This document shows positions 14,339-18,121 of a DNA stretch of 38,838 nucleotides, piece by piece. A program made the position numbers and the translations under genes. The DNA comes from a virus, in the IMG/VR virus record IMGVR_UViG_3300046462_000954, positions 1 through 38,838 of that record, one strand, 5' to 3'. Each line of letters begins with the position of its first letter. Position 1 is the first letter of the stretch. The notes below the pieces were generated by a model. The model was not told the origin of the DNA. It searched no databases and worked only from the letters and a program-made list of their open reading frames with translations.

Positions 14339-15680
14339 TTACGGTCCAGCGCTAGACGAGAGTCTAGTGCTTAACAGGTTTCGGATAGCTGTATCTTGAG
14401 TGATCGCTTGCGCTTGCGCGAATTTAACCGCTAAAGTTGCGTTTTGTGCGAGCATACCAGAATAGTACGGATCACGATAAATCAAGTTCATGGAGTATCC
14501 ATCTTGATTTATGTGCGTAATAGCTTGCTTACCAACAACAGTGTTGTAGTAAACATCTTGACTATTTTTAGACACACCACGAGCGATCGGAGCCTCAGAG
14601 CTTGTCAATATTCTTATGTTGAATACTGAACCAAACTCAGAAGGTAGAGCCGTTGCATTCGTAGGGTAGTTCCACTGGGACAGGAATCCTGATCCAGTTA
14701 AACCATCAAAATCCGTTTGAAGTTCAGTAGAGGATAGCATAAAATATGCTGACCTTACTGGACCTGTCAATTCTGTTACTTTTGTGACCAACTATAAGGA
14801 ATTACCTTATAGTTGGCGGGGACTTTCTCTACTTATCCCTCTCTATGTTTCCATAGAGTTCAGAGCACCGCATCCTAACAATCTCCCATTTTCCATAGTC
14901 TTTCTGCAAGACCGTCTGGAAGAGGGGAACATGATGTTAAGTCTTCTCGCTTGCTACGTTCAGGCTGAATATGATCACATGCTACAAAAACATCCAAAGA
15001 AGCAGGCCCTCCGTTCATGACCTGATCAAATTCTTTGCATTTTTTACATAATTCCATAATCTTGCCCCTTGTTGTCGCCGTCTTTACGCTGCGAGTTCCA
15101 AGTCTATCAGAGAAGATTTTACTTCGGCACACATTTTACCGAATCTGTCTTCACCCTCAATACCACTCATGAACTTCATGGCGTTATTGGTGTCAAGTGT
15201 TGTAGCGACTAAAGAAAAATCTGACGCTCCTAGATTCGTTGGATTATCTCCATTAGAACCTCCTCCTGCCATGATCTGACTTGCTGCCGATACGATGTAG
15301 TCACGGAGGATTAAATCTTCCGCTTGGCGCATAGCTACAGCTAAACGCTCGGAGACCCACGCGAGCACTCCTTCTTGGTCTTGCAAGATAACTTGCTCGT
15401 TAATGATACAACCTGTACCAAAAAACGCCATCTGCGCATCAATAATGTCGCGCTGTGGGACTTGCGCTGGAGGGTCAATACCCGAGTTCCCCAACTGAAC
15501 AGTAGGAGGAACCAACGCTTTTGGTCTCATAAAACGACATGTAGTACCACCATTTGCTGGCATAGCTACCTTGTCGCATACAAGAATATAATTCATTGTG
15601 GGGGTTGGGACATATAACATCGCAGGCGCTAAGCTCTGCAGGATCATCGGGCCCAAATTCCCAGTTGTAGTAATTGACAT
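14339..15680 (-). CDS. Major capsid protein, split by group I intron (join of two exons)
   Basis: Exon 1 is 15680-15138 and exon 2 is 14767-14339, giving a 323-residue protein after removal of 14768-15137. The ATG at 15680 has an AAAGGA site; an ATG 36 nt upstream has none. Exon 1 shows the N4-gp56 capsid pattern: MSITTTGNLGPMIL, a glycine-rich loop, LILRDYIVSAASQIMAGG, and GEDRFG. Exon 2 starts TGPVRSAYFMLSSTEL and continues with LPSEFGSVFNIRILTS and the usual C-terminal segment. Unspliced RNA would give a 198-residue truncated product with no C-terminal domain. The second exon has no credible start: only a TTG right after a TAG and without a ribosome site. Splicing restores the family-typical FGTGPVRSAYF. 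Confidence 0.85.
14768..15137 (-). ncRNA. Group I self-splicing intron in the major capsid gene
   Basis: The 5' exon ends TTCGGT (15143-15138) and pairs with GCCGAA (15128-15123) to form P1 with the required U-G pair at the splice site. The 3' exon ACA (14767-14765) pairs with UGU (15131-15129) as P10. P3 is AATCTTCT (15118-15111) with GGGAGATT (14887-14880), including two G-U pairs. P6 is GCAAGA (15065-15060) with TCTTGC (14911-14906). P7 is GACT (14900-14897) with AGTC (14824-14821). P8 is the 7-bp hairpin with a GAAA loop (14858-14841). P9 is a perfect 12-bp hairpin (14816-14788). The intron ends in G (14768). P4 and P5 were not resolved. The order of elements is that of group I introns. 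Confidence 0.85.
14875..15057 (-). CDS. Intron-borne small Cys-rich reading frame
   Basis: A 60-codon frame starting MELCKKCKEFDQVMNGG with an AAGGGG site 8 nt before the ATG. It has a C-x2-C pair at residues 4-7, a later ACDH, and a C-terminal cluster (TSCSPLPDGL, ending KMGDC). It starts inside the predicted P6 loop, where phage introns often carry homing endonuclease genes, but runs on through P6, P7 and P3. It is too short for a full HNH or GIY-YIG nuclease. It could be a remnant, a small zinc-binding protein or chance. Confidence 0.35.
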   Translation of the reverse strand: MELCKKCKEFDQVMNGGPASLDVFVACDHIQPERSKREDLTSCSPLPDGLAERLWKMGDC

Positions 15681-16384: not shown

Positions 16385-17040
16385 TAAAGTCTCAATCTTT
16401 TTTTTAATTCTTGCATTTTGTCATAGGAACTCTTCTGCCCCGCTTCGCTGAAATCACCCACCGCAGCATAAGGAGCCGCGGCAATTCCAGACGGTTGATA
16501 GAAAGGGCTCTTACGATTCTGATCTATTTTATCCTGAATAGAATTTTTAGGATCTTCTTTTTTGTGCAGTCCCAGAGCCTTTATGTTCTTATAAACCAGT
16601 TTCTGTCTCTCAAATCCTTCCGGCATAGAAAGGATGGTCTCGGCCCATTCAGGATCCTTGTCCGCCAAAACTTGAGCATGTTGCATTACATCTGAAAAAT
16701 CAGGATTTTGTTTTAACCAATTGCTTCTTCTTTCCTCATCTATGATCTTTCTAGACTTTTCCTCAGCCCTCCTTTCGACGTTTTCACCAAAGTTGCGAGA
16801 GAACTTCTCTAATTCTTTCTTCAGTCTCTTGGAATCTACATACGGTTCGTTATCATTTTCATCGTCATCATCGTCTCTTCTTTTGACAGCAACTTTCTCT
16901 ATTTCCTCGATTTTTCTTTCAAGTTCGGCTCTTGCAGCTCTTTCTTCGTCAAGTTTACGCTTAAAAACTTCTTCTTGCTTGCGAAAGTTAAATTCTATGT
17001 TATTTTGCTCAGGCTCTGACTTATCAGTACTTACAGTCAT
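16384..17040 (-). CDS. Putative scaffolding protein
   Basis: A 218-residue, highly charged helical protein. Residues about 15-55 form a strong coiled coil (EEVFKRKLDEERAARAELER), followed by an acidic DDDDDENDNE tract, a second helical region (KRLKKELEKFSRNFGENVER) and a basic C-terminus (YDKMQELKKRLRL) as in scaffolds that bind the capsid shell. The start was placed at the ATG with a GGAG site (17038-17040); an upstream in-frame ATG gives 24 further residues that look unrelated. Position just upstream of the capsid gene supports the call. Confidence 0.7.
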   Translation of the reverse strand: MTVSTDKSEPEQNNIEFNFRKQEEVFKRKLDEERAARAELERKIEEIEKVAVKRRDDDDDENDNEPYVDSKRLKKELEKFSRNFGENVERRAEEKSRKIIDEERRSNWLKQNPDFSDVMQHAQVLADKDPEWAETILSMPEGFERQKLVYKNIKALGLHKKEDPKNSIQDKIDQNRKSPFYQPSGIAAAPYAAVGDFSEAGQKSSYDKMQELKKRLRL

Positions 17041-17079
17041 ACACTCCTTTGATTTGACTTTGTTTACTAAAATCCCTAA

Positions 17080-17108
17080 TTTATATTTATAAAATAAACC
17101 TTTTACAA
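17080..17108 (-). promoter_or_regulatory. Candidate late promoter for scaffold/capsid operon
   Basis: On the minus strand TTGTAA (17108-17103) and TATAAA (17085-17080) are spaced by 17 nt, a sigma-70-like arrangement, with the start site expected near 17073, about 33 nt before the scaffold ATG. A weaker rightward pair (TTGACT at 17054-17059, TAATTT at 17077-17082) could serve the divergent gene at 17121. The region is very AT-rich, so a chance match is possible. Confidence 0.4.
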
Positions 17109-17120
17109 ACAAGAGGAATC

Positions 17121-17642
17121 ATGAAACTGGATCGTTTAGAAACGCATGACAGACTTCTAGAACTTCAGAAACAAGCTGATAACATCTCTCAAGGATGTCA
17201 GGACTGTATCAATGCAAGACCAAAAGAATTCGGATCTCACCCTTTTTACATCTTCGCTCACAAACGTGAACTGGGAGTGGACGAGAAGTTTTCAATCATG
17301 ATGAACGGAGGGTATAGAGGGATGGGAGATGTTCCTACTCATCGGTTGATTTGGGTTCCTAGGTTGAAGAAACCGAGCGCTCAAACTAATTCCATGCTAT
17401 TTAAATACTATCCCTCTGAGGACCTCATAAACGTGCTCTGGATCATTCCTGCCCCCGAGCTATGGGATCAGTATAGTGAAGACAAGATGTGCGAAAATAA
17501 GGTGGTTATGGAAAGCATACACATGTTTAAAACTGACAAATTAAAACTTGAACAAGACGAAAAAGATGATTTGAGCGATAAAGAGATAGAAAAAATTTAC
17601 AAACAGATCGCCACAACAAAAAAGAAAAAAATTTTACTATGA
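17121..17642 (+). CDS. Conserved-looking phage protein of unknown function
   Basis: A 173-residue protein with QGCQDCINARPKEFGSHPFY, then THRLIWVPRLKKPSAQTNSM, a YPSEDLINVLWIIPAPELWD segment and a charged C-terminal helix (KLKLEQDEKDDLSDKEIEKI) ending in a Lys run. The aromatic and proline pattern of the middle part suggests a compact alpha/beta domain; no catalytic motif was recognised. AGAGGA precedes the ATG. It heads a four-gene plus-strand cassette between the scaffold and the small virion genes, and is coupled to the next gene by ATGA. Confidence 0.5.
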   Translation: MKLDRLETHDRLLELQKQADNISQGCQDCINARPKEFGSHPFYIFAHKRELGVDEKFSIMMNGGYRGMGDVPTHRLIWVPRLKKPSAQTNSMLFKYYPSEDLINVLWIIPAPELWDQYSEDKMCENKVVMESIHMFKTDKLKLEQDEKDDLSDKEIEKIYKQIATTKKKKILL

Positions 17643-18121
17643 ATAACCCTCCTCGCGGATCAAGAGCGAAAGCTAACTCTCCGCACAACCCCACCCCATA
17701 TCTAGGACTTCCAAGAAGGGATGAAAAAATATTCACAGTTCAAGAAAATCGTCTTCTTGATCAAATAACAACCGAGATAATACTCGCTTGGAAGGACGAC
17801 TTGCTTTTGATCAAACAGCATCATATAGCAAATAAAAAATTGCTAGACTCCTTAAAAGGTTTACAATGCGAACTATCGTGTTTCAAAGAGACGATCAAAG
17901 GATTTGAGTCATTGAATACACTGAACAATTTGGGTCACTTTATTGATCTTCAAAGGAATGCTTTGTTTTCAATGCAAAAGCTTGATCAAGAATTTCAGGA
18001 GTTCATGAAAAGGGAGAGTTTAAAAAAGTGCTGCGTTCCCCTCGTAAGAAAAGAAAAAGAAGAAAACAAGTCTTTTTTCTCTTGTCTAGGTGGGTTGTTT
18101 AAAAAAGGAAATAAAAAATGA
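17639..18121 (+). CDS. Coiled-coil protein of unknown function
   Basis: A 160-residue protein with a basic, Pro-rich N-terminus (MNNPPRGSRAKANSPHNPTP), a long helical centre (HIANKKLLDSLKGLQCELSC and LQRNALFSMQKLDQEFQEFM) and a Lys-rich tail ending FSCLGGLFKKGNKK, which is hydrophobic then basic and might touch membrane. The start overlaps the upstream stop. No family was recognised. Confidence 0.45.
   Translation: MNNPPRGSRAKANSPHNPTPYLGLPRRDEKIFTVQENRLLDQITTEIILAWKDDLLLIKQHHIANKKLLDSLKGLQCELSCFKETIKGFESLNTLNNLGHFIDLQRNALFSMQKLDQEFQEFMKRESLKKCCVPLVRKEKEENKSFFSCLGGLFKKGNKK

Follow-up and report, generated by a model that had tools for sequence, protein, structure and literature searches.

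Is the major capsid protein of this uncultured phage encoded by a broken gene, by two fragments, or by a single gene from which an intron is removed at the RNA level? We analysed IMG/VR record IMGVR_UViG_3300046462_000954 over positions 1 to 38,838, the whole stretch of DNA (hereafter the window). On its minus strand, which carries all features described here, two open reading frames (15716-15084 and 14791-14339) are separated by 292 nt, and the sole start of the second, a TTG at 14791, lies inside the intron delimited below. Both features had been pointed out in an earlier note, which read the locus as an N4-gp56 type major capsid gene interrupted by a 370-nt group I intron. Sequence comparison indicates that the window does contain such a gene, cut by such an intron, with the boundaries as proposed.

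When the strand is cut after TTCGGT (15138) and before ACAGGT (14767), the two frames join, as the note had claimed, into a single frame of 323 amino acids without a stop. Exon 1 (15680-15138; 543 nt) begins with an ATG at 15680 and encodes the N-terminus MSITTTG, as in intronless homologues; exon 2 (14767-14339) comprises 429 nt including the stop codon; and the intron occupies the 370 nt from 15137 to 14768, limits that homologues with zero gap and spliced alignment fix exactly. If reading continues past exon 1 into the intron, 17 amino acids are added, with a peptide ending in ..KMCAEVKSSLIDLELAA, until an in-frame TAA (15086-15084) stops it. The spliced protein matches PHROG 1357 (major head protein) at 7.9e-18, as compared with 2.6e-6 and 5.7e-8 for the two halves, which cover profile positions 18-203 and 202-338, respectively. 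Its score with TIGR04387 (N4-gp56 family major capsid protein), 81.6 bits, is the only one to exceed the curated cut-off of 60 bits, the halves scoring 35.1 and 34.0 bits and adjoining on the profile (18-174, then 177-315). Among 159 related loci in IMG/VR (relatives fetched by either exon, some contigs entered twice, once per exon), 126 have the N- and C-terminal exons directly abutting (a gap of 0), and the remainder carry inserts. In the intronless relatives the junction is exactly DRFG/TGPVRS, so the comparison that the note had suggested for the exon boundary bears it out. No second capsid copy was seen in the window. A BLAST search of the region against GenBank phages gave no match, and tblastn with the spliced protein gave two weak ones.

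The boundaries, together with the comparative RNA evidence given below, also place the predicted helices. P1 is formed by the exon end UUCGGU (15143-15138) with the internal guide GCCGAA (15128-15123), leaving a U.G pair at the splice site, and the terminal G of the intron (G14768) is fixed by the zero-gap homologues. P3 pairs 15116-15110 with 14948-14942 (UCUUCUC/GAGAAGA), P4 pairs 15102-15099 with 15071-15068, P5 pairs 15094-15091 with 15078-15075 (UCGC/GCGA), and P6 pairs GGC (15066-15064) with GCC (14965-14963) and holds an ORF in its loop. P7 (14959-14862) consists of A14959-U14862, G14957-C14863 and AGCA (14955-14952) with UGCU (14867-14864), with C14958 and U14956 bulged; the additional bulged U defines what we term class-2 P7, a form common to the related introns L138, L003, L011 and L013. 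P1 with its U-G pair, the terminal G, P3, P6 and P7, all named in the earlier note, are thus present. Its "P8 with a GAAA loop" is a different element: that hairpin, CUCUAUGGAAACAUAGAG (14858-14841), is P9, and the true P8 pairs CUUAACA (14941-14935) with UGUUAGG (14880-14874), with 54 nt between the strands, an L8 insert that the covariance model described below permits. Downstream lie a P9.1-like hairpin identified by sequence, GGGAUAAGUAGAGAAAGUCCC (14839-14819), an element also found in L003, L013 and L138, and a P9.2-like hairpin (14816-14788). In the family to which the intron belongs, guide and P3 are only 5 nt apart, so that there is no P2. A candidate for the claimed P10 is present, UGU (15131-15129) facing ACA of exon 2 (14767-14765), but with 3 bp it is weak by itself; it is longer in some relatives, whose 3' sites were picked partly by P10, so that this helix has no fair control. 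Folding of the region as a single sequence returned no group I core, with a z of only -2.4.

The search that the note had recommended, Infernal with the Rfam model Intron_gpI (RF00028), was negative: the window gave no match at the gathering threshold and, at E values up to 10, only a meaningless 10-bit fragment. Clear members of the family described below likewise remained under threshold, so that RF00028 misses the whole subfamily and the case depends on a purpose-built model. A study of Bastillevirinae introns describes RF00028 as incomplete, lacking subgroups ID and IE (PMC11878797). The compact family resembles RF00028 in its P7-P3-P8 strand motifs (GACUAA .. AUAGUC) and in helix order, but differs from it in lacking P2 and in scoring below detection. 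Rfam matches to mir-1246 and to a snoRNA in the window were judged to be due to chance. An RF00028 match at L139 (3564-3806) was considered as proof that Rfam does contain the family and was rejected, as alignment identified it as a different intron; it is a standard RF00028 group I intron of 77 bits, residing in a capsid gene that it shares with several introns of the compact family. For annotation that relies on Rfam, capsid genes of this type look broken, and therefore intact phages are misinterpreted and too few introns are counted.

The purpose-built model draws on relatives across viral sequence. A sequence pattern derived from the intron segment immediately 3' of the guide was found in at least 120 viral stretches. 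Among 142 distinct introns whose guide begins with G, 137 form a P1 of at least 6 bp with their own exon, beginning with U.G, as opposed to approximately 4% when exons are exchanged between introns with different guides; counted by guide class, 48 of 50 pair with their exons. In an alignment of 31 introns without large inserts, from which the window was excluded, 96.3% of cells in the core helices P3, P4, P5, P6, P6a, P7 and P8 are paired, compensatory (double-change) cells number 178 versus 47.5 in shuffles, and the covariation score is 0.591 versus at most 0.10 with slid partners. Every core helix contains compensatory changes, and RNAalifold, uninformed of the model, recovers the same nested helices, the P7 pseudoknot being beyond its reach. 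At the P7 pair adjoining the bulge (pair 117-177) A-U, G-C, U-A and C-G all occur, and the pair that follows is invariably G-C, in the window G14957-C14863. The resulting covariance model (R1) has a single match in the window, on the minus strand at 14858-15121, covering all 119 positions with 65.1 bits and an E value of 3.6e-13; with filters off, this match breaks into two because the inserts are long. P1, the terminal G, a P3/P7 pseudoknot around P4-P6, P8, and a bulged P7 with the G-binding G-C pair are therefore all found in the window, and with the R1 match and the covarying helices P1 and P3-P8 the group I reading of the 370 nt stands. Against it can be set the variant class-2 P7, the long L6 and L8 inserts, the 3-bp P10 and the silence of Rfam. 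On this comparative evidence, the insert is best described as a compact group I intron belonging to a subfamily that escapes Rfam.

Could the insert instead be a decayed copy, leaving a capsid gene that is broken or whose two fragments assemble? We consider this very unlikely. The class-2 P7 does deviate from the common form, and the Rfam scan yields nothing beyond the 10-bit fragment, which both speak for decay; however, neither exon is damaged, both closely resemble intronless homologues, P1, the 3-bp candidate P10 and the terminal G are retained, and the window offers no second capsid copy. Moreover, L138 (213 nt) has the class-2 core free of inserts, and L003, L011, L013 and L012 carry inserts in it, beside intact exons. 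A reading in which the RNA is never spliced, with ribosomes bypassing or frameshifting over 370 nt, or in which an intein or insertion sequence accounts for the insert, can appeal only to recoding as a general possibility in phage genes, and its probability is in our estimation close to nil. Inserts at this one point of the gene range from 201 to more than 800 nt with unrelated loop contents, the boundaries bear group I hallmarks, and the core covaries; stops within the insert rule out an intein, and no transposase was seen in it.

The explanation that we hold with high confidence is that a self-splicing compact intron would yield an intact N4-gp56 type capsid protein. The RNA is predicted to fold without P2 into a pseudoknotted P3-P8 core followed by P9 and the P9.1- and P9.2-like hairpins. 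After transcription, the guide GCCGAA would pair with the exon end UUCGGU as P1, a guanosine bound in P7 would attack 3' of U15138, and the freed exon end would in turn attack past the terminal G14768, joining the exons into the N4-gp56 type capsid reading frame. Prior to splicing, ribosomes leaving exon 1 would halt at the TAA at 15086, in the P5 region. The comparisons show the split gene, its exact junction in relatives and a conserved, covarying RNA architecture; catalysis, intracellular splicing and translation of the intron ORF are inferred from these. The intron may also have a second reading, in which an ATG behind a Shine-Dalgarno-like AAGGGG gives a protein of 60 amino acids; as that frame crosses P6, P7 and P3, its translation and the folding of the core should exclude each other on any one molecule.

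This ORF (15057-14875; MELCKKCKEF..IQPERSKRED..KMGDC) runs from L6 through the 3' strand of P6, P7, the 3' strand of P3 and L8, and ends with a stop codon in P8 (3' strand). The AAGGGG (15070-15065) lies within the P4/P6 strands, 7 nt 5' of the ATG, a spacing common to most relatives. Neither Pfam nor PHROG gave a match to the 60-amino-acid product, so its function is the least supported part of the analysis. We had considered the window's intron as a homing intron and rejected this, since by Pfam and PHROGs its ORF is not an endonuclease, and no homing endonuclease was found in the intron with these databases. Relatives of the intron do carry LAGLIDADG genes, in sense orientation in L139 and L141 and antisense in L091, L130 and L153 (introns at nt 489 of the capsid coding sequence) and in L005 and L017 (nt 543).

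Does this frame represent a gene, or is it an accident of a stop-free core? In the core, frames 1 and 2 meet a stop codon after no more than approximately 15 nt, so that long frames are confined to frame 0, and the window's own ORF is without a database match; both points would suit an accident, a matter separate from the intron reading, and yet we regard it as rather improbable. L6 inserts of at least 60 nt occur in 78 introns, and in most of these a frame opens 0-5 nt past the P6 strand, after AAGGGG. The ATG frames in L6 are in phase with the core triplets CAG-CCU-GAA (QPE) in 59 of 63 cases, and L6 is open in 59 of 63. L8 inserts of at least 45 nt are open in the core frame in 30 of 41 cases, compared with 9 and 2 for the other two frames, and L8 inserts are accompanied by an L6 insert in 41 of 43. 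The encoded proteins, which we refer to as cargo, are diverse: DUF551 was assigned in 4 of 30, several are Cys-rich, and the majority have no assignment. Five homologous cargo pairs show dN below dS, with ratios of roughly 0.14-0.55 (dS being saturated in one); pairs under approximately 50% identity, mostly unrelated, were left out. Homologous cargo is found in both core types (L193 and L284).

These patterns lead us to propose, tentatively, a wider model to which we give somewhat less than an even chance. In it, a P2-less, Rfam-invisible group I subfamily with its main home in phage capsid genes would use L6 and L8 as a cargo bay, in which small non-endonuclease phage genes (DUF551, Cys-rich) would be translated through the core, adding a constant peptide of the QPERSKRED or QPERLNPED type, and translation of the cargo would exclude removal of the intron. 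If true, capsid output would be tied to cargo output. An ORF that shares letters with the G-binding site makes the question of translation versus splicing testable on many independent examples. As a separate observation, the P5 loop of L003, L006, L012, L014 and L094 forms a second cargo site, where the ATG overlaps or closely trails the stop of the exon 1 read-through; the arrangement looks like translational coupling to the capsid.

Spliced alignment of 117 complete, distinct capsid genes shows approximately half without an insert and the others with 1-5, frequencies that are biased in that the first query included 17 intron-read residues and the loci are nearest relatives. Recurrent or unambiguous insertion sites lie at nt 86, 93, 207, 231, 234, 312, 350, 360, 366, 432, 489, 498, 539, 543, 552 and 645 of the coding sequence, a total of at least 16 that leaves out the ragged junctions near 264-345 (312 excepted) and beyond 945; the window's intron is at nt 543. 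The stretches around these sites are slightly more conserved than random positions (0.97 and 0.94, respectively), with 0.5% of random draws equally high. Introns at nt 539, 4 nt upstream of where the window's intron sits, have the guide GACCUG for CAGGUU^UGG, as opposed to GCCGAA for UUCGGU^ACA; matching guides thus indicate that one intron family employs two overlapping sites. By the same comparisons, the N4-gp56 capsid gene is a hot spot for the compact family, and a single gene with many insertion sites and dozens of guides tracking their exons amounts to a natural experiment. Spliced alignment places five introns per capsid gene, in approximately 950-970 coding nt, in L096, L114, L083 and L139. 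L284 (JAJFUZ010000398.1, from a bin named Parachlamydia) has nine R1 matches in 3 kb with a split N4-gp56 capsid gene, and may be the densest case.

Among the family matches listed, 86 of 138 fall in capsid genes by tblastn, and more do by eye; it is important to note that this preference is partly one of ascertainment, because the search pattern came from capsid introns. Other hosts include portal, terminase, ribonucleotide reductase (two kinds), tape measure and other head genes. Capsid relatives were also found in bins named Parachlamydia and Pseudomonadota, which may be binned phage contigs. In GenBank, a family intron splits the P22-type coat gene of MW202674.1, a member of the family splits the ribonucleotide reductase of Roseobacter phage CRP-118, and another lies in an unannotated region of Nitratidesulfovibrio phage SRB7757. 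In the deposited record, the MW202674.1 locus (16569-18084) consists of two "P22 coat protein" genes and one hypothetical, and since the family intron separates the annotated pieces, the coat is probably one spliced gene. In CRP-118, a cultured phage, the intron lies between two annotated ribonucleotide reductase genes (OR420741.1, 34084-36157).

The earlier note had considered a capsid gene a less usual host, a view that precedents do not favour. In mycobacteriophage LittleE, splicing of a capsid-gene intron was established by RT-PCR and N-terminal protein sequencing, and the same paper cites a capsid-gene intron in Tuc2009 (PMC3706429). The LittleE intron, judged to be group I, resembles the window's in its host, a major capsid gene, in the U preceding the 5' site and in the terminal G, and it holds a LAGLIDADG-like ORF on the opposite strand (PMC3706429). 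The likeness is one of features alone: LittleE is a single phage with a single 819-bp intron, whereas the compact family occupies many sites, is invisible to Rfam and, in the window, carries an ORF that is not an endonuclease. Coding that enters the ribozyme core also has precedents, in the T4 td intron, where the I-TevI ORF lies in L6 and its 3' end forms part of P6a and P7 (the "core creep" model), and in a Synechococcus lividus rRNA intron, whose ORF overlaps P6/P7/P3/P8/P9.0/P9 by 81 nt (PMC3073962). The "core creep" ORFs are homing endonucleases (PMC3073962), whereas those of the compact family are mostly small non-endonuclease proteins, often with a second coding stretch in L8, and recur within one intron family. 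Several introns per structural phage gene are known from ICP1, where splicing of three was demonstrated (PMC10448857), but that gene is the tape measure, whereas here a capsid gene of approximately 970 nt holds as many as five. A literature search, which covered few subscription papers, found no paper on the compact family, on repeated invasion of N4-gp56 capsid genes, or on cargo other than endonucleases whose frame crosses the core.

Two neighbours of the capsid gene are worth recording. Beside it, at 14326-13220, a protein matches PHROG 584 (major tail protein), with the Pfam family E1_FCCH just under threshold; upstream, at 16232-15876, lies a Cys-rich ORF with a repeated motif (YEKIKKDxIxH).
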